A stretch of 64,000 nt of DNA, from IMG/VR virus record IMGVR_UViG_3300034101_005859, positions 62,001-126,000 of that record. One strand, written 5' to 3'. A program made the translations under genes and the position numbers. The DNA comes from a virus. The notes below the pieces were generated by a model. That model did not search any database. It was not told where the DNA came from and worked only from the letters and a program-made list of their open reading frames with translations. Of this stretch, positions 3,001 to 62,442 are shown piece by piece (positions within the stretch are counted from its first letter, which is position 1; each line of letters opens with the position of its first letter).

Positions 3001-6000
3001 AATTTCATTATGGAATTTGTTATATCGGTTATTGCATCAACTACTGCCGTAACTCCTTCAGAAGCACCTTTTGCAAGTCGTGGACTAAAAACAGCACCAA
3101 GTGCTTTTGCGAAATTTTTTATAACAAGTGCATAATAAAGAATTGGATTCTTAATGGTTATTATTGCATCTGATGCCATATACAACCACATTGGCACCCA
3201 ACCAGTGAAATCATAATTACTAGAAAATCCATATAAAAAATCTGACATGTTTTTCATTGCTGTTCCAATAGTCTTAACGGCATTTAGAACCGCTTCGACT
3301 CCTTCTACAGCACTTTGAACATATTTTGGATTAATGATTGAAACTATTGCTTTTGCCGCAATTATTACTGCCGTCCCAAAAAACACAATAGGAGGAGTTA
3401 AATCTAAGATTGCCCATCCTGCCAAATATAAAATATTAGCTAGAATGCCACTTATTGTTCCCAAAGCACTCATTCCAGACAAGTATGGAATCATTCCCAC
3501 TATTGCAGAACCTATTTTTCTAACACCATCTAATACTGTTTGCATTCCAGAAGTGGCTTCATCTACAAGTCTTGGAGGAATTACTCCGACAATTGACTTT
3601 GCTGCTTTAACTGCTGCATTAGAAAAATCTACCAATACTGGAACTATTGCATTAACTGCATCTGTTGCGTATCCTATTATGAATGATAAGAAAAAGGCTG
3701 TTACGCCAACTCCAGCCAAACCTACCAGTGATGCGGCTGCGCCTGCCAATGCTCCAACAATTCTTGTTGTTGATCCAGCAATTGCTGCTATTCCATCAGC
3801 TACATCATTAGCAGTCTTTGTGTCCATCAGATTTGAAAATGCGGCAGCAGCGTATATGACACCTATTGAAAAAGCAGCAATTAATGGTACTGCTACAGCG
3901 ATAGCAGCGGCCCCGACTCCAAGTAAAGTCCATCCAGCAGGATTATTTATCAAACTAAAAGCCCATCCTAGGCCCATAATAACGCCAACCGCTGCTGCTG
4001 TGGCCAATACTATCTTTCCTACTCCCCAGCCAAGAGCCCAAAGTGTATCTACAACTCCAGTGACTACAGAAGCATCAATTCCTGTAACATAAAGAATTCC
4101 CTGAATAGCCTTTACTAATAATGCTCCAAATGTCACAATACCAACGCTGAATGCACCTATTACTGCTGCTGCCTTAAGAATTTTCATGACATATTCTTTA
4201 GGATTTTTACTTAGTTGCTGGTACATTGCGCTTTCTGTGAATTCCTGCAATACTTCAGCGAACTCAACAGTTGCTACTGCCACACCACTAGCAACAGCAG
4301 CCAATGCGCCAATATTTGCTGCAATTTCAATCGTTGAAGCAGCATCAAGACCAGACATACTAAGAATTTTGCCGGTAATTCCAACCAGTGCTGCTCCAAA
4401 CAAAACTAGAGCAGAACCAATAAGAACCAATGCCAATGCTGTTTTAATTAATGTTCCAGATTGTTTTCTAATTTCTTCTACTTTTGGAGCAAATTCTAGT
4501 ATTTTTTCACTTACAAATACACTTGCTGCCGTAACTGCTGCTGTCACCCCAACAAGAGCGGTTAATGCAGTACCTATTTCCATCATCCTGTTGACATCAA
4601 TATTCAATAATTTCAAAAGCTTATCGCCCAAGAACATGATAGCAGCACCAAGAAGAACAGCGCCAGCAGTAAGAACGGCGGCAGAAGCTGCCGTCTTCAT
4701 CATTGATTTGCCGCCCTGTTCCATGGCTTTTGGATCAAGTACTGATGCATCTGGTGGTCCTGTTGCCGCCCCTCCAGCAGAAGATTCAGCTTCTTTTGTT
4801 TTAGATTCCTTGACTTCTTCTCTTTGAAGTCTTTGATCAACCCTCAACATTCTTACTTCTTTTTTCTGTTCTCTAATTTTAATTTTGTTTACATTTGCAT
4901 CGGTTATTGCATTCTCCATTTGCTGATCTTGAATTTTTTTGTTTATAGCATCTTCTGCGGCATTTGGTTTAGCTTCAGCAGCAGAAGCAGTAGCAGTCGG
5001 AGAAGGAGATTTAACAGATTCAATAGCTTTTTGTATCGAATTATTTGTTAAATCACAACATTTAGCAATATGCTCAAGTGCAGCAATTGCTGTTTTTATC
5101 GACTCATGTGTTCTTTCACAACATACACCCATCAGTTCAATTGAAGTGATCATGTCTTGGAAAACTTTCATGTATTTTCCGCCAGAAATACCGCCAGACT
5201 TATCTGACGCTTCCTTACCAGCAGCACTCTCTGCTTTTTGTGATGCTGAAGTTGGTACTTCGCCCTTGCTACTTAAACCAGCAGCTAAAAATGCATCTAA
5301 TGGTTTTTGGGTAGTTGTTGCTTCTGTTGTAGCTGCTTGGCCAGCAGTTTTTGCTGCTTCTGTTGTAGCTGCTTGGCCAGCAGTTTTTGCCGCTTCTTCT
5401 GGTTGTTGTCCAGATTCTTTTCCTGCTCCAAAAATCAAAGTTTTTATGTTGCCAAAAATACTTTTTTCTGCTTCTTTATCTCCAACCCTTGCTTTTCCAA
5501 ATAAAGCTCCTTTAAGATCTCCAAATGTTTCTGATGATGAAGAAGCAAATTGACCGAATTGGGTTGCAAGTGATCCCATTACGCTAGCTGCCACAGCGCC
5601 TTGTCCAACTATGCTATTCATGCCCTTTGACATGATGTTCTGAGACAAGTTTCTCATATTGTCATTGATTTCACTCAAATATTGATTAGATTGAGTTACT
5701 GGATCAAGTTGCGCTTTTTGAGCAGTAGCAAGTTCTTGTTCTCCTTTGGTAATTTTAGCAGTCAATTCACGAAGTGCTGTTGGGTCTTTGAGGGCTTTTT
5801 CTATTTCAGTCGAATCAATTTTTAATTGAGATTTTCCAGCTTCTTTTAGTCCTTGGTTAACATTTTCCAAGGCTCCTCTAATAGATTCTCTAGCAACTTG
5901 AGTAGAGTCTGTCCAACTAGTTCCCAAAGCTTGTAAATCGCCTTCAAAATCCTTTTTCTTTTCACCAAACTTAGCCAAGGCACCATTCATGTCCTTGGCA

Positions 6001-9082: not shown

Positions 9083-10420
9083 TCAACAATTTCTTAAGAG
9101 AATTTCAGGCGCACTCGGAACACATCTCATTAAAACTTGCAAGTCGCTAGGATTGCCAGAATAAGGAGTTTCTTTGAGAACAATGCCTCCGAATGAAGAT
9201 GCAGCCTCTTTTAATATATTGTATTGAGCAGTAAGGAATAAAATTCCATCAATTCTTTCCATGAACTCATGTTCTTCTTTGGCGGGCTTTCCTTCGTCAT
9301 CAACACCGCCAGCAGCATCCTTTACATAAATTATTTTAACATCTACATATGGAACAATAGCTCCATCTGTGTCGATCATGGCCTCTGTGTTTTCTCCTTG
9401 CATTAATTTCACAATGAGTTTTCCAGATGTGTATGCATTCCTGATGCTTCCTCCCAAGTCCCAACCAAGAGTGTTGATTGTTCCATCTTGGGTTACGACA
9501 TTGATTAGAAAAGATCTTTTCTTAAATGTGTCTGATATGGCTTCTATTACAATCCTGTGCCTAAGTACTTCTTTTTCTTCAGGACTTCCCTCATCAAGCC
9601 TTTTTTGTTCTGAATCGCTGAGGAATCTTTCTGGATCATCTTCCCTCATACTCCACTTGCCGATATCAACTTTTCCCCACTTATCATTAAATCTTGTTGA
9701 AATTCTGATTGAATAATCACGCTCGTTATAAATCAAATCCTCGTTATTGCCTCCAGAGCCAACTTGGATAGCTCCCAAAAGGCTTGCCATGTATTTCCTG
9801 TGCATGTCGCCTTTCATGCCAAGCAATCCCTTTAGCTTGATTAATGTATTATTCAACTCTGGCATGGTTTGTAGAACAGAAAACATGTGGTTTACCATGC
9901 TTACTGATGGATTGTTTTGATCGAGGTTCTGCTTAATGTTGTTTCTAATGGTTTTAGATGCCTTGTCGATATTGGCATTTTGTCTCAAAAATAGAATTTG
10001 CAGGTTATCTTCGACAAACTTTCTTGGATAAGCCTCTAGATTGGTGTCCCTGATTTGCTGAATTGATTCAATCATTTTGTTAACATCGCCACGGACACTA
10101 GCCTTGAAGAACTCGTTCTTCCAATTTTCAAAATCCTGTTTGCCCTGCTGTTGCGGCATATCAGGAGCTTGTGGATCATTTGCAACATCTGGCATTGATG
10201 ATTGGTCTTGGCCATCTGATTTAGATGCTGCATTTGGACTATTCTGTTGTGTTCCCGGTGATGGAGTAGCCATGTCAGAAGGTGGATTGGCAACATTAGG
10301 ATCGCCAGATGGAGGACCACCAGCACCAACTGGAGAATCTGGTTGTCCCATTGGTGATTGGGGTGCTGCTACATCACCAGACGCTTCGGTAAGCCATGAA
10401 TCCAATGCGTGTCTGCTCAT
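9083..10420 (-). CDS. Virion-type protein with Pro/Gln/Gly-rich N-terminus
   Basis: 445 residues; SD GGAATAAAA before the ATG. Residues 1-14 (MSRHALDSWLTEAS) contain an L-T-E-A step like a prohead-protease cleavage site. Residues ~15-95 are low complexity (Pro, Gly, Gln, Asn, Ser) and look like a flexible linker. The remainder is a mixed alpha/beta domain with no recognised motif. It is 2 nt from the following gene's stop region and co-oriented with virion genes, so a structural role is likely but unproven. Confidence 0.7.
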   Translation of the reverse strand: MSRHALDSWLTEASGDVAAPQSPMGQPDSPVGAGGPPSGDPNVANPPSDMATPSPGTQQNSPNAASKSDGQDQSSMPDVANDPQAPDMPQQQGKQDFENWKNEFFKASVRGDVNKMIESIQQIRDTNLEAYPRKFVEDNLQILFLRQNANIDKASKTIRNNIKQNLDQNNPSVSMVNHMFSVLQTMPELNNTLIKLKGLLGMKGDMHRKYMASLLGAIQVGSGGNNEDLIYNERDYSIRISTRFNDKWGKVDIGKWSMREDDPERFLSDSEQKRLDEGSPEEKEVLRHRIVIEAISDTFKKRSFLINVVTQDGTINTLGWDLGGSIRNAYTSGKLIVKLMQGENTEAMIDTDGAIVPYVDVKIIYVKDAAGGVDDEGKPAKEEHEFMERIDGILFLTAQYNILKEAASSFGGIVLKETPYSGNPSDLQVLMRCVPSAPEILLRNC

Positions 10421-11326: not shown

Positions 11327-12796
11327 ATGAAAAGCTTATTCTCAAAATATATCAAACTTCGTGAAGAAAGCGAAGAAGCCCCAGTTGGAGTTACAGCTAA
11401 GATAAAGCTGCAAAAAAAACAGGGAAGTAATGAATTTACTCCATTTATTATTGACAAGGACAATCATGCAAACTTAGCTCCTTTAATAGGAGCATTTCTA
11501 GATTCTGACAAAGTTGGATTAGGATACACCACAATAGACAGAAACAAGGGCGAAATAGAGCCGCAACTCAAGAAAAAATCAATATTTTTGACAGGAGGAG
11601 CAGTTAGGGACCATCTTCTTGGCAAGACTCCCAAAAACTACGATCTCGTAACTGATGCAACAGCTAGTGAGATCAGGATGATACTCAAATATTCAGGATT
11701 CAAGGAAGTAAAAGGCCAAATAGATAATAATAAATATGATGATTTACCCAATGATGTATCAGGTAAAAAGATTTTCTATGTGAGCAGAACCGATAAAAAA
11801 AGCAAAGAACTTGAAATTGTCGCAGTTGTAAAAGGACAACCTTTTAGACTTTCATCTATGACAAAGTCACCAAAGAGCAGATATTTTGATCCATCCGACA
11901 TTAAATTGGCATCCAGTGTAGAAGAAGATGCAATCAACAGAGATTTCACCATCAATGCAATGTACATTCCTTTAACCAACGATGATGGACCAAACAGCGA
12001 ATTAATCGATCCTTTCGGTGGAGCGCATCACCTGAAATCTGGAGAAATGAAAGCAGTTGGCGGCAAATTCGAGGACAGAATGCAGGAAGACCCAATGACA
12101 GCATTCCGTCTTGTCAATCACTTCAACCGTTTCGGCAAAGGTCAAAATGTACCTGAGGAATACTTAAAGCACATAGGATCTGAAGATGATTACGAAGATA
12201 TTTCTCCTGATAAAATCAAGGATGAATTCGTTAATGGTCTGGAAAATCCAGATGTCAATGCCAAAAAATTCTTGAAAACATATCACTCAACAGGTTTGTT
12301 AAACATCGTATTCCCAAATATTCATATAGATATTGAAGATGTTCCTAACGACATGAGATGTGATAGATGGATGGCTGCTGCTTGGATTCTTAGAAACAAC
12401 AACCCAACTGATGTTAAAGATGTGCTTATAGCAGGAGGGTGGAGCAAGCAGGAAGCAAGCGACATTGCATACCTCGTCAGATTCTATCAATGGGGCAAAT
12501 CAAAGTTTGACATAAATCAATTCTACAATATGATTCAGTCCCATACTGGTTTGACAAAAGCCAAAATCCGAGAATGGATGCATTTGGCAAATATGCATGG
12601 AAAAGAGGTTGACCAGTTTTTACATTTTAACAAAGATGATCTAAATTCGCACAACACAGATGAATTTGGCAACAAGAAGATCAATCCAATTTTCATACAA
12701 TTTCTTGGAAGAGAACCTGTTGGATCTGAACCTGATGAAATGAGAAAAATACTGATGACCAAAAGATGGAAAGAAATGAACGACAGAATTTTATGA
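11327..12796 (+). CDS. Class II nucleotidyltransferase: poly(A) polymerase / CCA-adding type (I)
   Basis: 489 residues; SD CAGGG before the ATG and a CATAAATA box about 37 nt upstream. The head domain has GGAVRD at 90-95, the metal-site region near 103-110 and the conserved RDFTINAM motif, followed by an EDPMTAFRLVNHFNRF-type neck helix. This is the PcnB/CCA-adding superfamily fold, which adds nucleotides to RNA 3' ends. The usual D-x-D metal motif reads N104-Y-D106, so the first Asp is replaced and activity may be altered. Its stop overlaps the HAD gene start (ATGA), suggesting joint expression. A tRNA lacking CCA is encoded at 54.8 kb. Confidence 0.85.
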   Translation: MKSLFSKYIKLREESEEAPVGVTAKIKLQKKQGSNEFTPFIIDKDNHANLAPLIGAFLDSDKVGLGYTTIDRNKGEIEPQLKKKSIFLTGGAVRDHLLGKTPKNYDLVTDATASEIRMILKYSGFKEVKGQIDNNKYDDLPNDVSGKKIFYVSRTDKKSKELEIVAVVKGQPFRLSSMTKSPKSRYFDPSDIKLASSVEEDAINRDFTINAMYIPLTNDDGPNSELIDPFGGAHHLKSGEMKAVGGKFEDRMQEDPMTAFRLVNHFNRFGKGQNVPEEYLKHIGSEDDYEDISPDKIKDEFVNGLENPDVNAKKFLKTYHSTGLLNIVFPNIHIDIEDVPNDMRCDRWMAAAWILRNNNPTDVKDVLIAGGWSKQEASDIAYLVRFYQWGKSKFDINQFYNMIQSHTGLTKAKIREWMHLANMHGKEVDQFLHFNKDDLNSHNTDEFGNKKINPIFIQFLGREPVGSEPDEMRKILMTKRWKEMNDRIL

Positions 12797-13386
12797 AAAA
12801 CTTTCTTGAATATCTGTGTATGAAAGAATCAACAGCGGAAAAAAGACTGGTCATTTACGATTTTGATGGAACATTGTTTCATTCACCAGAAGAACACAAT
12901 GGCAAACAAATGTATTATGACATCACCAATAAAAATTGGCCATTCAAGGGTTGGTGGGGAAGAAAAGAAACACTATCTCCTCCATTAGTTCCACAAAATC
13001 CAGATTCAAGCTGGTATGTGAGCAATGTTGTTGAATCACAGAAGAGTGATTCACAAGATTCTAATGCCACAGTAATCCTCATGACAGGCAGAGCAATTCA
13101 TCTTAAAAATCGTGTCATGGAAATTTTGGAAAATGCAGGAATGCATTTCCACGACACATTTTTTGCAGGACAACCGGGCACAAAGGGAGAAAACACCTTT
13201 GAAATAAAATCCAACAATATAAAAAATTTAATGAATTCTGATTATGAAGTATTAGAAATATGGGAAGACAGGCCCGAACATGTACATGAATTTTCAAAAC
13301 TTGGATTAAAACTTAAGGAAGAAAATCCAAATCTTAAAACAGTAATTATACATGATGTGAAAAGAGGCTCTAAAGAAAAATTCTGA
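12793..13386 (+). CDS. HAD phosphatase of the RNA-repair (HAD_SAK) type
   Basis: 197 residues, start ATG overlapping the preceding stop. HAD motif I is D23-F-D25-G-T, motif II is T98-G-R100, and EDRPEH near residue 160 supplies the acidic motif. The spacing, including the LFxxP segment after motif I and the W-E-D-R-P-x-H ending, fits the 'Swiss Army Knife RNA repair' HAD family. Coupling to a nucleotidyltransferase supports a role in healing RNA ends, for example after host anticodon nucleases. The first residues (MKNFLEYL) loosely resemble the head tag. Confidence 0.75.
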   Translation: MKNFLEYLCMKESTAEKRLVIYDFDGTLFHSPEEHNGKQMYYDITNKNWPFKGWWGRKETLSPPLVPQNPDSSWYVSNVVESQKSDSQDSNATVILMTGRAIHLKNRVMEILENAGMHFHDTFFAGQPGTKGENTFEIKSNNIKNLMNSDYEVLEIWEDRPEHVHEFSKLGLKLKEENPNLKTVIIHDVKRGSKEKF

Positions 13387-13403
13387 TCCTGTTAGGGGGA
13401 CGA

Positions 13404-13748
13404 ATGGGATATGAAGTTTACAGAAAAATAATCAAAGTTCTCAGGGAAAATCTACCTCCAGCATATCCAGTCATTGTTAGGCGTGTCAAACTGGTAGGAA
13501 TTGACGGAGACTGCATGTTGGACGAAAAGAAGTTCTACATCAGAATCAACAAAGAAATGGACGAAGGTTCAGCAATAGACTGCCTCATTCATGAATGGGC
13601 TCACGCCAGAGCTTGGAATCACCTTCATGATTCGCTAGACGACAAAGAATTTGAACTAAGATCGCACGATGCATCATGGGGAGTGGCTTATAGCGAGGTC
13701 TATAGGACATACGAACATCATTTCTTATTTGGAAAAGACTCAAAATAA
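13404..13748 (+). CDS. Small zinc-metalloprotease-like protein (HExxH)
   Basis: 114 residues; strong SD (TAGGGGG) 7 nt before the ATG. H63-E-W-A-H67 is a zinc-binding HExxH motif inside a helix, followed by a conserved-looking HDASWGVAYSEVYR segment that could supply a third ligand. It is a minimal SprT/ImmA-like metallopeptidase by layout. It sits 18 nt after the HAD gene and probably shares its transcript. Substrate unknown. Confidence 0.7.
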   Translation: MGYEVYRKIIKVLRENLPPAYPVIVRRVKLVGIDGDCMLDEKKFYIRINKEMDEGSAIDCLIHEWAHARAWNHLHDSLDDKEFELRSHDASWGVAYSEVYRTYEHHFLFGKDSK

Positions 13749-13764
13749 ATTACTACATTATCTC

Positions 13765-14637
13765 ATGAATTACTTCGTAAGCGTCAACCTAAAAGCATAT
13801 CACGATTGGCAACTAGAATTATTGATTGAAAGCTTCAACATTAATTCTGCCACCGACAAACTATTTGTCGGTATCAGCAAGGGTAGCTGCCACAGATACC
13901 CTTATATCAACCATGTTAATTCATTGAAAAATGGTTTCATTTACGATGATTTCGGCAAGAAAAAAGGTTTTGAACCACTTAACGAAATTTATCAAATCAA
14001 TCACTTGCTAATGACAAATAAAATGAAAACCCCATTGTGCGTCATAAAACCACATATGGTTATGAAGAAGCCAATAGAAAAACTAATTAAAACACTTGAT
14101 GCTAGAGCCTTCATATATGTCCAAGACCCATTTTTTACATTTGACAAAGCTGTTGAAAATTGTGGAGAATTCTGGAAAGAATTCGACAAGGAAAAAGAAC
14201 TATACGAAAACAATTGGTTTAACCTTGGAAAAGTCTATGTTCTGGCTGGATTCCCAGAATGGTTCGTTCAGAAAATAATCCGAATTGCCGAAACATTGAT
14301 CGTCAATCAAATCATGGCCAATAAAACTGTTTGGTCTGAAACAATTAGACTTGCTTGGGTTATGTCGATCATAGAATCGGCAAAAGACATAGAAATTATT
14401 CCAAACTTTGGACTTTCTGCCATCATGAATGATAGTACAGACTCAGTATTCATTGACTATGAACATGGACTTCCTCCAGATTTCAGCAATTCCATGTTCA
14501 CATTCCCGCCTCCAAAATTTATTTCTTTTGGAGACCCAATAGAAAAAATATCAACTTGCATCTCAACACCAAATTCACATTTCATGTCTAAGATGGCAAA
14601 AAATATTCTAAATAAAAGAAAAGTAAAAATTAAATAA
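13765..14637 (+). CDS. Putative glycosyltransferase-like protein
   Basis: 290 residues from an ATG 17 nt after the previous stop; a longer in-frame reading overlapping the protease gene is less likely. The opening, VSVNLKAYHDWQLELLIESF, resembles GT-A-type nucleotide-sugar transferases that begin with a beta strand and a Trp-Gln helix. No clear DxD was found, though several Asp pairs occur. The protein ends convergent with, and overlapping by 8 nt, the SpeD-like gene. Function is tentative. Confidence 0.55.
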   Translation: MNYFVSVNLKAYHDWQLELLIESFNINSATDKLFVGISKGSCHRYPYINHVNSLKNGFIYDDFGKKKGFEPLNEIYQINHLLMTNKMKTPLCVIKPHMVMKKPIEKLIKTLDARAFIYVQDPFFTFDKAVENCGEFWKEFDKEKELYENNWFNLGKVYVLAGFPEWFVQKIIRIAETLIVNQIMANKTVWSETIRLAWVMSIIESAKDIEIIPNFGLSAIMNDSTDSVFIDYEHGLPPDFSNSMFTFPPPKFISFGDPIEKISTCISTPNSHFMSKMAKNILNKRKVKIK

Positions 14638-22357: not shown

Positions 22358-23485
22358 ATGTATCTTTGGACAAGCGAAGCAGTTTCAAACGGTCATCCAG
22401 ACAAGGTCGCAGACCAAATAGCAGATACCATTCTTGATGCATACTTGGAATTAGAACCAAATAGCCGTGTCGCAGTCGAAGTAACATGTTGCAAAGAACT
22501 CGTACTCGTTACAGGTGAAACATCATCATCAAAAAAACTCGACATTGAAAAACTTGTCCGTAGAAAAATAACCGAAATAGGCTACAACTCACCAGAAACA
22601 AGCTATGACGGAAATACAATTAAAATTCTTGATCACCTCAATAGACAATCATCGCAAATTGCTCAAGCAGTAGCTAAAGAAGATGGAAATATCGGAGCGG
22701 GCGACCAAGGACTTATGTTCGGATTTGCTTGCAATGAAACAAAACCACTCATGCCTCTTGCCCATCATCTAAGCTTTGTGGCAATTAACGCACTTAAAGA
22801 AAATAGAACAATTTCTAATACACTTTTACCAGACGCAAAAAGCCAAGTAACCATAGCATATGACAATGATGGAAATCCAAAATATATCGATACAATACTT
22901 GTCTCAACTCAACATCGTGAAGGTGTTTTCAAAAATATAGAAAAACTTCATGAATATGTCCATGAAATCGTTTATCCGGCAATTACTAAAGATTTTGGCC
23001 AATTAGTGAACAATACAACTAAATGGTTATACAACCCTGCTGGACTTTGGACTCTTGGAGGGCCAGCAGCAGATACAGGACTAAGCGGCAGAAAAATCGT
23101 CGTTGATAATTACGGAGCAGATTGCCCAATAGGAGGAGGAAGCTTTAGCGGCAAAGACCCAACTAAAGTAGACAGAAGTGCAGCATACGCAGCAAGACAT
23201 GTAGCCAAAAACTTGGTATCACAAGGATTCGCCAAAAAATGCCAAGTTCAAGTATCATACGCAATAGGAGTAATAGAACCTGTTTCAATCCGTGTGCAAA
23301 CATTCGGAACAGGAAATGATGAAGAACTCACACAACTCATCACTAAAAATGTACCACTCAATCCCAAATCAATCATCGATAGACTTCAACTTCGACAACC
23401 AATTTATTCAGCTACAGCAAGCGGAGGACATTTCGGAAGAAATGAATTTTCTTGGGAAAAAATTGACTTGAAATTGAATAAATAA
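22358..23485 (+). CDS. metK: S-adenosylmethionine synthetase
   Basis: 375 residues, full family length; SD GAGG. The N-terminal SEAVSNGHPDKVADQIADT, the central GAGDQGLMFG, and GGGSFSGKDPTKVDRSAAY are the three MetK signatures, including ATP- and Met-binding residues. It makes SAM from Met and ATP. With two SpeD proteins in this window it would feed decarboxylated SAM production, and it may also supply DNA methylation. It is close to the tagged ParB-like gene (3 nt gap). Confidence 0.95.
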   Translation: MYLWTSEAVSNGHPDKVADQIADTILDAYLELEPNSRVAVEVTCCKELVLVTGETSSSKKLDIEKLVRRKITEIGYNSPETSYDGNTIKILDHLNRQSSQIAQAVAKEDGNIGAGDQGLMFGFACNETKPLMPLAHHLSFVAINALKENRTISNTLLPDAKSQVTIAYDNDGNPKYIDTILVSTQHREGVFKNIEKLHEYVHEIVYPAITKDFGQLVNNTTKWLYNPAGLWTLGGPAADTGLSGRKIVVDNYGADCPIGGGSFSGKDPTKVDRSAAYAARHVAKNLVSQGFAKKCQVQVSYAIGVIEPVSIRVQTFGTGNDEELTQLITKNVPLNPKSIIDRLQLRQPIYSATASGGHFGRNEFSWEKIDLKLNK

Positions 23486-54859: not shown

Positions 54860-54894
54860 TATCGGCTTTGCTTCTAGGAAATCCGAAGCAGTTT
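54860..54894 (-). repeat. R1 element, copy 22, before the tRNA
   Basis: Loop GGATTTCCT keeps GG/CC. It overlaps the stop codon of the upstream gene and is followed by a tRNA, not an ORF, hinting at a role in RNA processing rather than translation. Confidence 0.9.
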
Positions 54895-55540
54895 AAGCCC
54901 TTCCTTCATTGATAGCTTTTCTATGGAGGAATTCAGACCATGATCCCATGAAGCTCTTGGGATATTCTACGCTTTCAAATGTGAATGTCCTCTTGTTTTT
55001 CCACAACATTGTATGAAACATTCCAGCCTTGCCGGGGTGAATGTCACCAACTTCTATCATGTTACCATGTCCCGGCCAAACCTTCTTACCATTCTCATCA
55101 ATATCTACTGTTCCAATCAAATATGCCTTTTCTTCTCCATAAGGCTTGAAAACAATTGATTCCTGATCATACTTGTTTCCCAATTTCATCATATTTTGCT
55201 TAAACTCTTCATTCCATTTAGAATTCACTTCATCATTGTGCCTAGATTCATCTTCTGGAGTTGTCTCCGTATTCACCTTCATAGGCTTAGATGCAATAAA
55301 CAAAACATCTTCTTGGACAGGATTCTTCTCTCCTTCTGTTCCATATCCTTCTACATAACGACCCTTCATCTTCACAAAACCAAATCCACCACCTCTAACA
55401 TCTGATATAAGATTCTCTGTTCTTATCTTATTCTCTTCCTTGCCGTATATTCCTCTTGATGCTGATACAATGGAAAAAGAATTGTTTTCAAAGTGGCCTA
55501 ATACACGAGTAAGACTTTTAGATGCAGATTCGTTCAACAT
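54893..55540 (-). CDS. Hypothetical protein, DUF3293-like N-terminal pattern
   Basis: 215 residues; AAGGAG 7 nt before the ATG. SIVSASRGIYGKEEN, then LISDVRGGGFGFVKMKGRYVE, resembles the I-[IV]-[ST]-A ... E-N ... L-x-G pattern of DUF3293-type phage/bacterial proteins. Function unknown. Confidence 0.65.
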   Translation of the reverse strand: MLNESASKSLTRVLGHFENNSFSIVSASRGIYGKEENKIRTENLISDVRGGGFGFVKMKGRYVEGYGTEGEKNPVQEDVLFIASKPMKVNTETTPEDESRHNDEVNSKWNEEFKQNMMKLGNKYDQESIVFKPYGEEKAYLIGTVDIDENGKKVWPGHGNMIEVGDIHPGKAGMFHTMLWKNKRTFTFESVEYPKSFMGSWSEFLHRKAINEGRA

Positions 55541-55542
55541 GA

Positions 55543-55725
55543 TTAATCTCCTTCATTTTTATTTGAACCTATATTCTTTACATATTCAAGCCATACCCAA
55601 AATAATTCTTCTTTATTTTCCGAAAATAAAGTAGTTTTCGTCATTTTAATTTGGGAATGGCTATCCATAATTTTAACTCTTTCTGAAAACAACTGTCTTA
55701 AAACATTCTCTCCAAAATCAGTCAT
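55543..55725 (-). CDS. Hypothetical small protein
   Basis: 60 residues beginning MTDFGENVLRQLF; start overlaps the stop of the upstream gene (ATGACTGA), so likely by re-initiation. Helical, Trp-rich C-terminus. No separate SD. Confidence 0.5.
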   Translation of the reverse strand: MTDFGENVLRQLFSERVKIMDSHSQIKMTKTTLFSENKEELFWVWLEYVKNIGSNKNEGD

Positions 55726-56494
55726 CTTGTGTTTGATCTTCGCTTTCATCATCTTCATATGTCGATCCTTCTGGCTCATCATCTCGATAAAGCATGAGAA
55801 GATCACGCTCCAAGTCAACCTCAAAGTAGTCCCCAAATCTATCAGAATCAACATATTCTCTCATGACTGGGGAAAATTCTTGCTTATAAAGAAAATCATC
55901 AGTGTGGAACTTGATGTAATGATATCTGAACTTCTCAAGAACATTAGTTTCTTCTTCACCGATCAAATCCTTGAAAATTTCCCAACTGTGTGACCTGAAT
56001 GCTTTGTATTCAGGATTATTGAGAATTAAGTTTCTTACTGCTCCATTTCGGCAGTTAAAACATTCAATATCATCATCAGTAAATCCTTTGTAATTACAGT
56101 TCCTACAACCCTTAGTAACTCCTCTCTCAAGAATGCTTAGTGTCAAATGATCAAAAGGATTTGTTGGGCAAAATCCATATTGATAACACCAAAAAACTTT
56201 CTTATCCTTGCTCTCAAATGAGTGTTCGTAAACATTGGTTCCCTTGAGAGGAACATTTATAATCCTTGAGCCAATTGATTTTATTCCACTCTTCTGGCAA
56301 ATCCTGTTCACATAAGCTGCCAATGTGTATTCAAACAATGTCCTCTGATAGTGTCCACCAAAGTGGATGTCAGTTCCTGTATGTGTGAACATTCCTGCAA
56401 TCAATGCATCGTGAGGAGGTTTGTTTTTATTGATTATCACTTCACTCATTTCGGTTACAGCGGCCCTTCCCCAATTCGATTCGATATTGAACAT
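55718..56494 (-). CDS. Hypothetical protein with internal zinc ribbon
   Basis: 258 residues; AGGAGTCAAGGAA before the ATG. CRNCNYKGF and IECFNCRNG form a C4 ribbon at ~128-150, followed by a helical part and an acidic tail. Function unknown. Confidence 0.7.
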   Translation of the reverse strand: MFNIESNWGRAAVTEMSEVIINKNKPPHDALIAGMFTHTGTDIHFGGHYQRTLFEYTLAAYVNRICQKSGIKSIGSRIINVPLKGTNVYEHSFESKDKKVFWCYQYGFCPTNPFDHLTLSILERGVTKGCRNCNYKGFTDDDIECFNCRNGAVRNLILNNPEYKAFRSHSWEIFKDLIGEEETNVLEKFRYHYIKFHTDDFLYKQEFSPVMREYVDSDRFGDYFEVDLERDLLMLYRDDEPEGSTYEDDESEDQTQDD

Positions 56495-56781: not shown

Positions 56782-56958
56782 CTAGCAGATTACTGTCAAT
56801 CGCCTAACCAGTTGACGACCTTTCACCTGCCGTTTATTCGCCATGCCCAGTTGCCTTGCGAGTACCCCATTGCAGACCGTCTGGAAACGATCTGGGCAAC
56901 CAATAAGAGAAAATTCAAGGTTCTTGAATTTTCTCTCACACATAGAACATGGTTTCAC
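56782..56958 (-). CDS. Small Cys-rich basic protein at the end of the Ubl operon
   Basis: About 58 residues if it starts at a GTG; an ATG five codons on is also possible, and neither has good SD spacing. CSMC and a later GCPDRFQTVC suggest a zinc site; the C-terminus is Arg/Lys-rich. It lies 55 nt after the Ubl stop, across a GC-rich GGGTGG/CCACCC hairpin, and before the operon terminator. Real status moderately likely. Confidence 0.45.
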   Translation of the reverse strand: MKPCSMCERKFKNLEFSLIGCPDRFQTVCNGVLARQLGMANKRQVKGRQLVRRLTVIC

Positions 56959-57013
56959 CCTCTGTACGAGTGGGTGGGAGGAGGGTGGTTTTGCCCCCCA
57001 CCCGCTGGCAGAA

Positions 57014-57289
57014 TTAACCCTTCTTGCCAGCTTGCTTGATGAACTCAAGTGTTGAGTTCTCAGTAATGAGAAAGTCATCTCCAACCTTAACACCATTCAC
57101 AAAGGCCACAGCATCTGCTGGGATATTGTGAGTCTGGGAGAATGTGTTGCGTACAGCAGCAACAGTGTGGTTGGCCAAGGGATACATCCCATCTGCCGTA
57201 CCATGGATGACTTTTACAAGACTTTGAGCCAATTGGCCCAAAGATTCATTAGTCTGAACGCTGTTAGAAAAACCAGTAGTATTGCTCAT
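57014..57289 (-). CDS. Ubiquitin-like beta-grasp protein ending in Gly
   Basis: 91 residues from the ATG with GGGGG upstream. VKVIHGTADG starts the first strand, residues 38-56 form the helix, and VNGVKVGDDFLI leads to the last strand LEFIKQAG and the C-terminus KKG91. This order and the terminal Gly fit ThiS/MoaD/Prok_Ub-type modifiers, activated by E1 adenylation at the last Gly. It directly follows the E1 gene. The N-terminal ~20 residues are a flexible Ser/Thr/Asn-rich extension. Confidence 0.75.
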   Translation of the reverse strand: MSNTTGFSNSVQTNESLGQLAQSLVKVIHGTADGMYPLANHTVAAVRNTFSQTHNIPADAVAFVNGVKVGDDFLITENSTLEFIKQAGKKG

Positions 57290-57304
57290 GGTAACCCCCA
57301 TTAA

Positions 57305-58033
57305 TCAGGAAACAAACCGATCACGAACAACACCTGACATGACCACCATGTCAAGTAAAACCTCTCCATACTTCTCAGGACTCTTCAAAACCTTACTTCT
57401 AAATACCTCACTATCGGTGAGATTGTAAAATGCTGAAAGCATATTCGCTGCAATCAGATTGTTCACAATCACCAACTGAGGAGTTTGTTCAGCCTGACGA
57501 CTACAAGAACCCGGCTGATTCAACTGACTAGGATGCAAGTCGTCAGGACTTGCAATCTCTGGATGATATTGTGATGCAAGGGGAGGAGTCAAATCTTTTC
57601 CATCACGACGAATGTGAATTAACACATTGCCATCATGAAGATCGTTACCACCACTTATGACCGTGATATTGTTTAACTCGATAGCTCTGTCACTCACAAT
57701 CTTACGACTGTTGTGATTGTCAACAGCCAAAATCACAATGTCGTTCTCACGAATGTGAGGAACAATATTGTCTTCGCTAAGGAAAACAGGATGATCGACA
57801 ATCCTGATCCTTCCAAACTTTTGTCTCAACTGATTGGCAGTGACTGTTGCCTTGGGGCCAATCTCGTTAAAGTCTTGCCTCTCGGCATTCCTTGCCTCAA
57901 ACTCGTCTCCATCTATTAGATGGACCTCGGCAACAGGAAATTTCTTGGCCTCGTAATTAATGAAACGACAAAGGACAGGAAGAAGACACAATCCAATTCC
58001 TCCTGTCCCTACAACCTTAACCTTTTGCATCAT
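57305..58033 (-). CDS. ThiF/E1-like adenylating enzyme
   Basis: 242 residues; AAGGGG before the ATG. G9-T-G-G-I-G14 nucleotide loop, D41-G-D43, N49 and R52-Q53 for ATP, D105-N and R110, and a likely catalytic C177 in PGSCSRQ, followed by Q186 and N191-N192. All E1 hallmarks are in place. It should adenylate the Ubl's C-terminus and form a thioester. No ubiquitin-fold domain or JAB is fused. Confidence 0.9.
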   Translation of the reverse strand: MMQKVKVVGTGGIGLCLLPVLCRFINYEAKKFPVAEVHLIDGDEFEARNAERQDFNEIGPKATVTANQLRQKFGRIRIVDHPVFLSEDNIVPHIRENDIVILAVDNHNSRKIVSDRAIELNNITVISGGNDLHDGNVLIHIRRDGKDLTPPLASQYHPEIASPDDLHPSQLNQPGSCSRQAEQTPQLVIVNNLIAANMLSAFYNLTDSEVFRSKVLKSPEKYGEVLLDMVVMSGVVRDRFVS

Positions 58034-58065
58034 CAACCCCCCTTAAAACTTTCACCACACCCATA

Positions 58066-58100
58066 TATCGGCTTTGCTTCTCCCCTTTCCGAAGCAGTTT
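58066..58100 (-). repeat. R1 leader, copy 23
   Basis: Loop GGAAAGGGG; precedes the E1 gene and splits the JAMM and E1 genes. Confidence 0.9.
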
Positions 58101-58139
58101 TAACAAAACTTATAAAAGATGGGTTGATATCAAGATATA

Positions 58140-59135
58140 TCAATCACCATCCCATTCACGAATTCCGTAGTAATTTTCTTCTGACCTGTAGATTGAGTCT
58201 CTACCTCGGCTACGGTTGTGTTGATTAAGTTTCCACATATCATACCATTCTTCGTCATCACTATCCTTCTTGGACTTGATATCTTGATAAGTCCAAGAAG
58301 AGCTAGGAGCAGAATCAGTGATTGGTGAGACGAACTTGGTTACTTTTTCCATCCAAGCTGGAAGGACATTTGCCAAGAATTCAGCATGATCAGACTTTTC
58401 TTGTTCATTGAGTTCATCGAGTCTGAACCAATACTCAGTTCTTTTGGTTGTACGCTCGTAGACAGACCCACGATGACTATATTCTTCTTTTTCCGTAACT
58501 TCCTCTTCCGAATCAGCAACAAGTCCATCTGCGACATCTGTTGGATTCATTTTCGTTCTATTGTTGTTAAAGCAAATGCTGCTTGCGATACTAAACTTGT
58601 CGGAATTAACATGGCCAAATGTCAGGTGAATACCATCAAAGCTGGCCTCGTCTGCCTCGTCAGTTCCACTGTGGAATGCACTAAAATCACAATGAGAGTG
58701 AATAGTTCCAACCATCTGCCATCCAGCACCTTCGCTGCCGATATAATCACGCTCCTCAAAAGAAACAGTATCTGTTCTGTCGTAATCAACTGAACAATAG
58801 CTCACTGTTTGGTTTGGGCACCAAAGCTTATAGTCATTCAACTTCTTTGAATAAAGAAGAGTCAAATAAGACTCGCTTCTGTGATTGGAAAAGACAGTTC
58901 TGAAGAATGTCTTTGCCTGATACATGATCTTGACAGGGATGTTTGGCAAAGTGAACTTTGTATTCAGCTTTGCATTGTCAAGAAAAGGAATGGAGCCAAC
59001 CTTGACAAGAGATGAACCATGTAGCCTCTCCACTCGGAGATAAATGCCGTCTTTGGCAACAACATAATATGTTCCATTTTCAGGAGGAGTAAAACCATTA
59101 GAAGCTAAATAAACTGGAAATGTAACAATCGACAT
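58140..59135 (-). CDS. JAB/JAMM isopeptidase (deubiquitinase-like)
   Basis: 331 residues; AAGGAG upstream of the ATG. E88 (SES), H146-S-H148 and S156-G-T-D159 form the JAMM zinc motif with the normal spacing, so it should be active. It would remove the Ubl from targets or trim its tail. The C-terminal ~150 residues are acidic, then basic and Tyr/Arg-rich, with no motif. The gene is 26 nt after the stop of the AT-hook gene. Confidence 0.85.
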   Translation of the reverse strand: MSIVTFPVYLASNGFTPPENGTYYVVAKDGIYLRVERLHGSSLVKVGSIPFLDNAKLNTKFTLPNIPVKIMYQAKTFFRTVFSNHRSESYLTLLYSKKLNDYKLWCPNQTVSYCSVDYDRTDTVSFEERDYIGSEGAGWQMVGTIHSHCDFSAFHSGTDEADEASFDGIHLTFGHVNSDKFSIASSICFNNNRTKMNPTDVADGLVADSEEEVTEKEEYSHRGSVYERTTKRTEYWFRLDELNEQEKSDHAEFLANVLPAWMEKVTKFVSPITDSAPSSSWTYQDIKSKKDSDDEEWYDMWKLNQHNRSRGRDSIYRSEENYYGIREWDGD

Positions 59136-59161
59136 ACTTGATTCTCCTTAATTGTTGATGA

Positions 59162-60610
59162 TTAAGAAACTTTCCTTGGCCTTCCACGCTTTCTCAGAGT
59201 CTCACCATTAGGACCAACAAGACAACCACTGCTTGCTACCAAGTCGATGCTTTTCTCAATATCTGGAGGAAGAGATTCCTTCTTTGGCCTTCCACGGCGA
59301 GGCTTAGAAAGAACAGCACCTTGTTCATCAAAATTCTGTTGCAACTTGGCCTTAATGGATTCAACACTTTTCAACTCATCTTGCAAATAGTTGTAAATGT
59401 TGAAAAGCTCAAGCTGAACAAGGTTCCTTAGATTGTCCCAAGACTCTTTCTGAGAATTAAAATTGCTGATCTGGTATCCCAAATTCCTTTCCCTAACGGA
59501 AATATCTCTCTCCAAATTACTAAGCCTGCTCTCGTCTTCAAAGACCTTATCCTTATGCTCGGAATGAGCAACTTTCCAAAGATTGGAATAGGCTTGATTG
59601 ACCATATAATTCAAATTATTTGTCAGTACTGTTAAATGAGCCGAATTTCTATTCTCTTCTGCAACATCAACACTATTCAGACTGCTGATAACACTTGAGA
59701 CATAATTTTCAGTCTCGCTCTGAATTACGCCTGTAATGTTGTTGAGCAGAACAGCACGATTATTGCGACTACTATAGTCACTTGAAATAAACTGACTAAC
59801 AGGACCATAAGATTCATAAAGGCAACTATTGGAAAGCACAAAAAGAGGATCTGCTGCACTTTTCTTGTGCCATGCTGCCATGCAACCATGAATGTTGACA
59901 TTGCTGCCATTATCACCGTTTTTACGGTATTCTTGTGAGAAGTTTCTATCCAACCATATCCTGAAATACTCGGATAAGTCAATGTTGAACTCACTCTGCC
60001 AGAAAAGGTTGATTATTTCATTGCACTTCGTCGAAATATCAACTTCCAGATTATAAGAACTACTTGCCTGATTCATAATATCACCAAGACACAAACTGTT
60101 TCCCATGTTGGGCAACTGCAAACGCTCAACATTGGAATCGAGAGAAGAAATTGGTTTCTTCGACCCAGAAATTCTCACCTGAATCAACCTCAAGGTGTTG
60201 TTATTGTTCGCCGAAAAAACAATGTAGAATTGCACGAAAGGCAATGCCACATTGTAGTTTTGACCAAGAAAATTAATCACACGAACAGTTGGCTTCTGCT
60301 CAATGACAATGTTAACATCTCTACCTTCACGATGGACAAACCTTGTCCCTTCTGGGAAAACAATTAATTGATTAGATTGATTGTTGACCCAAGAATTACA
60401 ATAGCCCTCAAGCTGAGATGTAATCTTTTCTTTAAGGTTCGCAACATCCTTATCACAAGAATCATTGATTACTGAACCAAAATTATTCTTGAGCCTCGAC
60501 AAAACAATGCTTGTGCCATTTCTCATGGCATCTGCTGCTTCTCGGAATTGACTTGAAGACTTGATGTCTTCACAAACAGCAATCAACTTGGCTTCTGTTT
60601 CACTACTCAT
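59162..60610 (-). CDS. Prok-E2-like protein with coiled coil and two AT-hooks
   Basis: 482 residues; AAGGGGG upstream and ATGA overlap with the previous gene. Residues ~80-180 are strand-rich and end in LPNMGNSLCLGD: a conserved-looking Pro-Asn then Leu-C174-Leu-Gly, similar to the P-N ... C-x-G of PRTRC protein B / Prok-E2_D. C174 is a candidate thioester cysteine. Residues ~350-430 form a coiled coil. PRRGRPKK (437-444) and KRGRPRK (474-480) are two classical AT-hooks that bind the minor groove of AT-rich DNA. The E2 call is inference. Confidence 0.6.
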   Translation of the reverse strand: MSSETEAKLIAVCEDIKSSSQFREAADAMRNGTSIVLSRLKNNFGSVINDSCDKDVANLKEKITSQLEGYCNSWVNNQSNQLIVFPEGTRFVHREGRDVNIVIEQKPTVRVINFLGQNYNVALPFVQFYIVFSANNNNTLRLIQVRISGSKKPISSLDSNVERLQLPNMGNSLCLGDIMNQASSSYNLEVDISTKCNEIINLFWQSEFNIDLSEYFRIWLDRNFSQEYRKNGDNGSNVNIHGCMAAWHKKSAADPLFVLSNSCLYESYGPVSQFISSDYSSRNNRAVLLNNITGVIQSETENYVSSVISSLNSVDVAEENRNSAHLTVLTNNLNYMVNQAYSNLWKVAHSEHKDKVFEDESRLSNLERDISVRERNLGYQISNFNSQKESWDNLRNLVQLELFNIYNYLQDELKSVESIKAKLQQNFDEQGAVLSKPRRGRPKKESLPPDIEKSIDLVASSGCLVGPNGETLRKRGRPRKVS

Positions 60611-60900
60611 GTGCGATTCCCCCTTCTTTGTTTTATCGGCTTTGCTTCTTCCGATTCCGAAACAGTTTTATCAAAAGGCATTCCAATGTAATCATATGCT
60701 TCTTCTATGTTTTTGAATCTAGGGCTATTTTGTTCTATCTGAAGAATTCCCTTCCAATCAAATTTTTGAAGGTAATACACAAAACCTTGATCTATGCTCG
60801 AAGAAAAAACACAAGGATAGAAATGAAAATTTTTAACGGAAAATGGTTTGAGTTCTTTTTCACTTTTAGGCCAATCCTTTTCCTTTTTTTTAATTGTCAT
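60607..60900 (-). CDS. Hypothetical protein of the Ubl operon
   Basis: 97 residues; GAGG 8 nt before the ATG; overlaps genes on both sides by 4 nt (ATGA). The C-terminal ~20 codons are encoded by an R1 copy. Basic N-terminus, aromatic centre. No family recognised. Confidence 0.65.
   Translation of the reverse strand: MTIKKKEKDWPKSEKELKPFSVKNFHFYPCVFSSSIDQGFVYYLQKFDWKGILQIEQNSPRFKNIEEAYDYIGMPFDKTVSESEEAKPIKQRRGNRT
60634..60668 (-). repeat. R1 element inside a coding sequence, copy 24
   Basis: TGTTTC faces GAAGCA (one G-U pair). It is read in frame as SESEEAKPIK in the preceding gene, and the next gene's SD follows it. Confidence 0.85.
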
Positions 60901-62012
60901 GATGAAGTCCTCTTCAACCTTGAAGCAAGATTGCTCCTCCATTCATCCATTCTAGAAACAGACATCTGGAAAAGCTCTTTCACCTTTTCCACAACAGGAC
61001 TATTTCTAACAAAACCTGAGATAAATCTTTTTGGAGAATATCCATAATCAGAACAGTAGAAATGGTCAAATCCATAATGAATAGGATTTGCCCCTTGGTT
61101 TGTATAATTAATTTTCAATCCCCAAGAATCAACAACTGTCGATTTAATATAAAGACTAGGATTCATTGGATCTAATTGATACTTGTCAAGATTATTCAAA
61201 ACCTGAGATGAAATATGAGCAAGCATTATAGACTGGGCAGGGAAAAGAAACTTGTTGATTTCACCTAACCTTTCGGGATCAAAAGAATTCTGATCAAAAT
61301 TATTACTCGTACAATTCTGGGTCTTTATAGACCTTAAAAAATGACCCAAAACTAAATCATAACTATCACGACCAAAGTTGCTTAAACCAAGAAAGTAATT
61401 GTTGTCTTGAACTATTGAATCAGAATGATGTAGAGTCAAAACCTTCAATAAAGAACTGAATAAGTGAAAAGATTTTTCGTCATAGTATTCAAGATTAAAA
61501 TTTCGTTGTCTTAAACTGTTTTGTGTTGAATTGTTGATGCTATAAGTTAAATCAAGACGATCATAATCAACACGACCTGATAATCTTCTGTTTTTCCTAG
61601 CTCTTGTGACATTGACGAATCCCAAACCAATTGCATTGAGAAAAGAATTGATGTTGGCAGTTGTTGGTTTTTTAGACCTCAAACCAATTATCGTTTCATA
61701 ATCAACCTTGAAAGAATCGTTGGATTGAGAAGAAAGTCGATAAACAATACTACGATCATTTTGAACGCACCATTCTGCCATTTCATCAATGGTTGCGAAA
61801 TTCATATCAGACTTGCTGATATAAAAACGGATATTACCGCTTTCTTCCCTTTGGCCAGCAATGTACTTGCCAGTTTCTTCCCTGCAATAAGGAAGTGCCA
61901 AATTCCACCTACCCGAACTATCACGATTGACATAATGAACAGGTTTGGAAACACCATTCCCAAAGTCGTAAATGAAATGAGAATTCTTCAAAGAATCAAC
62001 CAAACTACTCAT
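60897..62012 (-). CDS. Unknown protein of the Ubl operon
   Basis: 371 residues; AAGGAG 6 nt before the ATG. Mixed alpha/beta, with a basic patch KNRRLSGR, a His/Ser-rich centre, and a C-terminal helix ending RLKRTSS. No catalytic motif recognised. Its placement between a DNA-binding E2-like gene and a RuvB-like ATPase suggests a target or adaptor role. Confidence 0.7.
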   Translation of the reverse strand: MSSLVDSLKNSHFIYDFGNGVSKPVHYVNRDSSGRWNLALPYCREETGKYIAGQREESGNIRFYISKSDMNFATIDEMAEWCVQNDRSIVYRLSSQSNDSFKVDYETIIGLRSKKPTTANINSFLNAIGLGFVNVTRARKNRRLSGRVDYDRLDLTYSINNSTQNSLRQRNFNLEYYDEKSFHLFSSLLKVLTLHHSDSIVQDNNYFLGLSNFGRDSYDLVLGHFLRSIKTQNCTSNNFDQNSFDPERLGEINKFLFPAQSIMLAHISSQVLNNLDKYQLDPMNPSLYIKSTVVDSWGLKINYTNQGANPIHYGFDHFYCSDYGYSPKRFISGFVRNSPVVEKVKELFQMSVSRMDEWRSNLASRLKRTSS

Positions 62013-62015
62013 GAT

Positions 62016-62351
62016 TTACTCCTTATCAATGATGAGCATTGCCTGCTCAAGTGCCTTATTGATAGTACCTGATATATTGTCAACAAAACTTTGTAGCCTT
62101 TGGGCACAAGCAAAGAGTGCTTCTTTCTTAGTCTTGTAGCACTCTTCCATGATTACTGGCTTCTCATCAAAAGAACCATTATCTTGGATTCTGGCACACA
62201 ATGAATACTCAGGAAGAATAACCTTCCACTTGAACAAATGGAAAAATGCACAATCACGAGGTTCGTAATTCTGACTCAACCCCGCAAAATTTGTGTAAAC
62301 TATATCACCAGCAATACATTCAGAAGTCTTGACCTTGTTGTCTTCTGGCAT
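62016..62351 (-). CDS. Hypothetical protein of the Ubl operon
   Basis: 111 residues; GAGGAG 6 nt before the ATG. Beta-rich first half with several Cys, helical second half. It ends 3 nt before the next gene. No family recognised. Confidence 0.65.
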   Translation of the reverse strand: MPEDNKVKTSECIAGDIVYTNFAGLSQNYEPRDCAFFHLFKWKVILPEYSLCARIQDNGSFDEKPVIMEECYKTKKEALFACAQRLQSFVDNISGTINKALEQAMLIIDKE

Positions 62352-62370
62352 TGAATTCTCCTCAACCATA

Positions 62371-62405
62371 TATCGGCTTTGCTTCTTCCCAATCCGAAGC
62401 AGTTT
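62371..62405 (-). repeat. R1 leader, copy 25
   Basis: Loop GGATTGGGA; first of two R1 copies in a row upstream of 62,351. Confidence 0.9.
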
Positions 62406-62442
62406 CAAGAATTAGTGATCAACATGATTGGTTGCACCCATA

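Follow-up and report, generated by a model that had tools for sequence, protein, structure and literature searches.

Ubiquitin-like conjugation in bacteria is known mainly from plasmid PRTRC genes, the function of which is unexplained, and from host anti-phage systems. Bub and Bil include a JAMM protease, and BubCD fuses the activating enzyme (E1) to the protease. Here we describe four adjacent genes for a ubiquitin-like protein (Ubl), an E1, an E2-like (conjugating-enzyme-like) protein and a JAMM protease in 64,000 nucleotides of viral DNA. This stretch, hereafter the window, spans bases 62,001–126,000 of the 136,667-bp IMG/VR virus record IMGVR_UViG_3300034101_005859, and all locus coordinates are given in window numbering. 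The genes probably constitute a real phage-borne module for Ubl conjugation and deconjugation, with predicted activity. From gene content and order, the homology of all four parts, near-invariant catalytic residues and a beta-grasp model of the Ubl, we put the probability that this four-protein module serves reversible ubiquitin-like conjugation at about 0.78. A complete, widespread and, by prediction, active Ubl set in a stable genomic setting would then belong to phages and provide them with a protein-tagging system of their own.

Operon type 6d of Iyer et al. (2006) combines a Ubl, a helical protein F, an E2-like protein, a JAB protease and an E1 (PMC1779556); judged here from gene content, type 6d is the plasmid PRTRC system. 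We found no description of a phage-borne PRTRC-type module in the open literature, a weak form of evidence since subscription papers and preprints lay outside the search.

In transcription order, the minus strand of the locus encodes proteins of 130, 371 and 111 residues, the 482-residue E2-like protein, the 331-residue JAMM protease, the 243-residue E1/ThiF enzyme and the 95-residue Ubl, with gaps of 26 bp between E2 and JAMM, 103 bp between JAMM and E1, and 3 bp between E1 and Ubl. A first-pass annotation of the window had proposed a phage-encoded cassette of these four functions. Its open reading frames (ORFs) were all found again in place, and the proposal is supported by profile searches, sets of about 100 relatives for each protein (alignments of 92 rows for Ubl, 103 for E2, 108 for JAMM and 119 for E1), the Ubl model and the E1 tree. 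The record also encodes a gp23-type major capsid protein, a portal and a terminase. The capsid protein shares 81% identity with its counterpart in LR756511, an uncultured phage of 595 kb, and for this reason the record is likely to be only part of a huge-phage genome; at the nucleotide level, the window between 40 and 64 kb has no relatives among named phages.

Comparison with PRTRC and other described systems

Profile–profile comparison relates each of the four parts to PRTRC. With deep profiles, hhalign gave 99.6% for E1, 98.3% for JAMM, 85.3% for E2 (with the Cys aligned) and 61.6% for Ubl against plasmid PRTRC, and 100%, 100%, 97.4% and 89.6%, respectively, against other phage modules. Profiles of Ubl and E2 became informative at about 100 sequences; those built from five reached only 10–11% against PRTRC. 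The window Ubl has no direct PRTRC_C or Prok_Ub match, its two hhalign values referring to plasmid PRTRC_C and to phage PRTRC_C-like Ubls. The earlier statement that gene set and order match no nameable system therefore has to be narrowed, as the parts match PRTRC (type 6d) and only order, fusions and accessories differ.

Common to the window and PRTRC are, by profile homology, the same four parts, the sub-order E2–JAMM–E1, the E1 Cys column, the GxKG end of the Ubl and the N-terminal extension of JAMM. PRTRC loci, however, run Ubl–F–E2–JAMM–E1, whereas the window Ubl lies at the 3′ end (E2–JAMM–E1–Ubl), and the window E2 differs in carrying a long C-terminal region that includes AT-hooks. In a tree of 69 E1 proteins, the window's branch (40 rows, support 80/84) stands beside, not within, the group of PRTRC and PRTRC-ordered phage E1s (82/72), supports that are moderate in a tree with several long-branched rows. 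Neither PRTRC ParB nor PRTRC D was found in the 136.7-kb record, itself a fragment, and no F-like protein lies between Ubl and E2; the 371-, 130- and 111-residue proteins match no F-like set. The strictly conserved Arg and Trp of the type 6d JAB N-terminal region have no corresponding columns at positions 22–49 of the 108-row JAMM alignment, where the PRTRC 'RPW' aligns. Likewise, the His that is absolutely conserved downstream of the type 6d E2 Cys is missing in the window's branch, where its column is variable and F-N-x-D occurs instead (N 90/103, D 83/103), versus F-S-H in PRTRC_B. Because the E1 branch lies beside the PRTRC group and neither ParB nor D turned up in this record, we regard the module as a putative sister variant that would work as PRTRC is predicted to, not as a PRTRC member.

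Among named phages, tblastn identified ThiF–JAMM pairs in Vibrio phage D69, Acinetobacter phage ME3, Bacillus phage KLEB27-3, a faecal contig and Salmonella phage Arash, with the Arash E1 and the KLEB27-3 and ME3 JAMM genes recognized from neighbourhood reading or alignment. Near these pairs lie an E2-like gene and a gene for a Ubl with a KG terminus (GNKAA in ME3); the faecal contig stops before any Ubl could be visible. Together with IMG/VR loci L025–L033, the modules of KLEB27-3, D69, Arash and ME3 resemble that of the window in their homologous E1, JAMM and E2 and in the end of the Ubl. They differ in that their order is mostly Ubl–(F-like)–E2–JAMM–E1, as in plasmid PRTRC loci, and some have clear Prok_Ub/PRTRC_C Ubls, sometimes three to five in tandem. 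The KLEB27-3 Ubl matches Prok_Ub at 3.9e-27 and PRTRC_C at 6.9e-17, and the L028 E2 matches PRTRC_B at 1.5e-12. Tandem Ubls, of which KLEB27-3 has four and D69 three, would need a processing protease.

Multiubiquitin/DUF6527 operons, Bub and Bil also combine a Ubl with a ThiF-type E1. BubCD differs in its E1–protease fusion and gives only a weak PDB match to the window E1 profile (1.3e-4); the multiubiquitin E1 differs in having 395 residues and a very long branch, with an unsure place in the E1 tree. CBASS Cap2/Cap3 is similar in principle, with E1-to-E2 transfer and JAMM removal, but E1 and E2 are fused there, in a system that also has a cGAS-like nucleotidyltransferase, whereas the window has separate genes for them and a dedicated Ubl; PADLOC E1–E2 models match the window proteins weakly (5e-5). 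Lambda-type tail proteins I and K likewise join a phage Ubl to a JAB protease, but do so without E1 or E2 and in a tail assembly setting (PMC1779556).

The E1 enzyme and the JAMM protease

The E1/ThiF gene (57,305–58,036, minus strand like all genes of the module; TTG start) encodes 243 residues that match Pfam ThiF (PF00899) at E = 3e-15, above cut-off. Its best NCBIfam model is PRTRC_ThiF (TIGR03736, 1.2e-12), under the curated cut-off; since the curated NCBIfam cut-offs were not reached, the window proteins are divergent. The glycine loop, D42, D44, R53, K62 and D106 are each kept in at least 97% of the 119 relatives. Cys178 (57,503–57,505), the candidate thioester cysteine, is present in 110 of 119 and invariant across a 14-row alignment that includes PRTRC. 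It is the residue that the first-pass annotation had singled out as Cys177, a number that becomes 178 when the TTG start codon is taken as residue 1.

The tree sets the module E1s apart from MoeB and ThiF (98/93). Whereas E. coli MoeB and ThiF each have two CxxC motifs, the window E1 has no CxxC zinc motif, and two such motifs occur in just 6 of 119 relatives. ThiG and MoaE, the only cofactor genes searched for, are absent from the record. On these grounds we rejected the idea that the E1 is a MoeB/ThiF cofactor enzyme, the alternative that had been raised against the cassette. The same results bear on a sulfur-carrier system, in which the E1 would make a Ubl thiocarboxylate for tRNA or metabolite thiolation, as in ThiF–ThiS and MoeB–MoaD, and JAMM would merely mature the Ubl. 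E1 and Ubl alone would be enough for such a system, and the relatives' Ubls are weakly ThiS/TGS-like (E about 0.02). We nevertheless consider it very improbable given the E1 and cofactor-gene evidence above and the fact that nearly all viral loci of the branch, unless cut by a contig end, encode, besides E1 and JAMM, an E2-like protein with a near-invariant Cys.

The JAMM (JAB) protease (331 residues; 58,140–59,135) matches Prok-JAB slightly under cut-off (4.7e-5) and PRTRC_A (TIGR03735) at 1.6e-9, with its N-terminal region aligned. The motif H146-S-H148-x7-S156-x2-D159 (58,659–58,700) and the upstream E88 (58,872–58,874) make up an intact JAMM site, as had been read from the sequence: E88, H146, H148, S156 and D159 are each conserved in 107 of 108 relatives.

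The Ubl and the E2-like protein

The Ubl gene (57,014–57,301) encodes 95 residues, or 91 from a second ATG that is preceded by a GGGGG box and is probably the start. Its product ends in ...LEFIKQAGKKG. From the GxKG ends of relatives, the terminal GKKG (57,017–57,028) is the predicted adenylation and conjugation end, and the last two residues, K94 and G95, are conserved in 91 of 92 relatives. The exact GxKG end is found in 53 of 92 Ubls, and 35 of 92 have 1–14 extra residues, often just one Cys; these tails lead one to expect a processing protease. AlphaFold models the protein as a beta-grasp fold (b-b-a-b-b-b) with a core predicted local distance difference test score (pLDDT) of about 75–86, and with low confidence for the tail and most of residues 1–36. 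In a Foldseek search of the PDB, all 50 of the 50 matches listed are ubiquitin-fold proteins (ubiquitin, NEDD8, SUMO, ISG15, MoaD, TGS), with probabilities of 0.97–1.00 and weak E-values, the best being 2.3e-3. The Gly-ended beta-grasp protein suspected at this position is thus consistent with both model and fold matches.

The E2-like protein (482 residues; 59,162–60,610) has, from profiles, an E2 domain at about 80–260, followed by predicted long helices and two C-terminal AT-hooks. The candidate active site is Cys174 (60,089–60,091) in the motif LPN....C.G, conserved in 101 of 103 relatives. When a profile was built from no sequences but those of D69, KLEB27-3, Arash and the faecal contig, it detected the window protein at E = 0.008, and the E2 of L023, a relative whose genes are ordered as in the window, matches Pfam Prok-E2_D (PF14460) above cut-off. 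These results bear out the earlier description of an E2-like conserved-Cys segment.

Several results weigh against a conjugation module. By itself, the window Ubl has no convincing family match in profile libraries. The AlphaFold model of the E2-like protein is poor (mean pLDDT 54), and a fold search with it returned no E2, although the model is too poor for such a search to be meaningful; for this reason, it is the profiles and the Cys that carry the E2 assignment. The window E2-like protein was also below detection in family-library searches. The poor model, the fold search and the missing PRTRC histidine would suit a protein that is a DNA-binding scaffold and not an E2, in a set that just makes and trims a Ubl. 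We give that reading little credence in view of the retention of Cys174 and the above-cut-off match of L023, and continue to favour reversible conjugation.

In two sister loci, further E2-like genes were seen: L153 (3460–7907) has three close ORFs of 348–370 residues that all match the E2 profile, and L154 has two E2-like ORFs bearing the Cys motif, a possible E2 duplication.

Recurrence of the module in viral genomes

Within the window's branch, IMG/VR scans with the E1 and JAMM alignments collected 80 distinct viral contigs. The order E2–JAMM–E1–Ubl on one strand was counted by hand in 72 of them, and several others are cut by the contig end. The same gene order can thus be found in other phages, as the first-pass annotation had suggested checking, and because kit and order recur across phage contigs, it seems that some phages tag proteins in a ubiquitin-like manner with machinery of their own. 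The nearest relatives are L151 and L152 (JAMM 53% identical; E1 60% identical over 231 columns), together with L153 and L154. The branch also occurs in contigs of metagenome-assembled genomes, mainly from candidate phyla radiation bacteria and archaea, which are possibly viral or misbinned. A scan of genome contigs found a Ubl–E2–JAMM–E1 variant in Chloroflexi, Planctomycetota and others.

About 65 of 76 viral loci place the module within a recurring gene block, which encodes an SbcC-like ATPase, a radical-SAM protein, WYL_2, E2, JAMM, E1, Ubl, and RNA polymerase beta′ and beta. This setting bears on the idea that the module is a weapon, with the same chemistry directed at host defence proteins or at virion proteins of rival phages, in a reversal of Bil- and CBASS-linked conjugation. 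Known bacterial Ubl systems do act in phage conflict (PMC10097602), and a gene of the Pfam S-AdoMet_lyase family (54,893–55,540, just above cut-off) lies 1.5 kb from the module amid small ORFs of no known family. The block is, however, a conserved setting and not a variable region, and we think this use rather unlikely.

About 19 loci (among them L020 at 9247–10104, L021, L022, L047 and L058) have a second ThiF-like gene (about 286 residues) between the Ubl and RNA polymerase genes; the three products that were read end in ETGAA, and they fall outside the module E1s in the E1 tree. LR756511 was considered as a carrier of the cassette and rejected, since this nearest huge-phage relative has a different ThiF and JAMM pair: a small ThiF (217 residues) and a 158-residue JAMM (HTHPNFSAHYSGRD) with a 214-residue ORF between them (L043, 7617–9542). 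In phage ME3 (L018, 2733–5843), the JAMM gene seems to be interrupted directly after ...MDIH, and the halves are separated, intron-like, by apparent homing-endonuclease ORFs and an annotated tRNA-Met. In phage Arash (L019, 107–307), the 66-residue Ubl ORF is unannotated in GenBank, where Gp251 is called in a different frame.

Predicted mechanism and targets

The chemistry and its direction are predictions from the conserved parts. E1 would adenylate the Ubl at its C-terminal Gly and then capture it on Cys178. The next carrier would be the E2-like protein, which would receive the Ubl on Cys174 and link it to a target amine. Cleavage by JAMM behind the Gly would serve two ends, the trimming of precursors such as the tailed and tandem Ubls of relatives and the removal of the tag.

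Conjugation may take place on nucleic acid, in which case the likeliest targets would be proteins bound to phage or host DNA or RNA, with RNA polymerase a candidate in the related lineage. The evidence, which hints at such targets by inference, comes from the AT-hooks, Rho_N/SAP-type Ubls in relatives, the RNA polymerase neighbours and Arash particle proteins. The AT-hooks of the window E2 (RGRPK, 59,282–59,296; RGRPR, 59,174–59,188) make it the only one of the record's 218 ORFs with two RGRP[RK] motifs, and the L151 E2 likewise has two. Many relatives' Ubls are about 155 residues long with an N-terminal Rho_N/SAP-type domain; Rho_N was matched in three of the five scanned (best 1.1e-8), with L021 above cut-off. 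Mass spectrometry of gradient-purified particles detected the Arash homologues Gp246 (E1; 5 unique peptides), Gp247 (JAMM; 3) and Gp248 (E2; 2), and the phage RNA polymerase beta subunit gave the strongest signal (PMC10585845).

Other observations count against nucleic-acid-bound targets. AT-hooks are confined to the window's sublineage, and of the RNA polymerase, radical-SAM and small-ORF families that were tested, none has a homologue in the window's record. The Arash list comprises 116 proteins, including replication enzymes such as primase, ligase and helicases (PMC10585845), so carry-over into the particles is possible. Carry-over is also the likely account of the same peptides if they are taken to mean that the module tags the virion of the phage itself or the proteins packaged in it, the enzymes being carried inside too. 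Arash is moreover only distantly related and has its genes in another order, and a virion tag seems unlikely to us. With respect to targets, we tentatively entertain, as possible but doubtful, a separate phage branch outside PRTRC, the substrates of which would be nucleic-acid-bound machinery, reached through DNA- or RNA-binding parts fused to E2 or Ubl; in the related lineage this machinery would be the phage's own multisubunit RNA polymerase. The cultured relatives Arash, KLEB27-3 and D69 allow tests of function, and phage modules would open access to the long-standing question of the role of the PRTRC family.

Neighbouring genes and other features

The co-directional ORFs of 111 (60,607–60,942), 371 (60,897–62,012) and 130 residues (62,016–62,408) had been taken for three partners of the cassette. 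They have no homologue at other related loci except L014 and L150, which are from the same phage population, and no profile match, and we rejected them as module parts or as PRTRC_F. As these upstream genes are not conserved, the gene set comprises four genes, plus perhaps that for a 258-residue CxxC...CxxC zinc-knuckle protein (55,718–56,494, minus strand), the only candidate partner, a homologue of which adjoins the module in L151 and L152 (E = 6e-16). The ORF at 56,782–57,096, with which the cassette had been thought to begin, overlaps the Ubl gene out of frame and is probably no gene.

An S-adenosylmethionine synthetase gene (22,358–23,485) is present in this phage alongside the S-AdoMet_lyase-family gene. 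Among the collected loci, L009 has an intein splicing domain within a T4-type portal gene (12026–14533) and a 525-residue protein (3323–4900) in which one region is Mom-like and other matches are endonuclease-like. A dispersed 45-bp repeat (ACACCCATATATCGGCTTTGCTTCTC...TTCCGAAGCAGTTTG), possibly a regulatory or mobile element, has one copy in the gap between JAMM and E1 (58,057–58,101, plus strand), outside the module proper. The window holds 22 copies with at most nine mismatches between 36,762 and 62,478, all in a single orientation on the plus strand; the repeat contains a small GCTTC...GAAGC hairpin, and further copies lie beyond the window.

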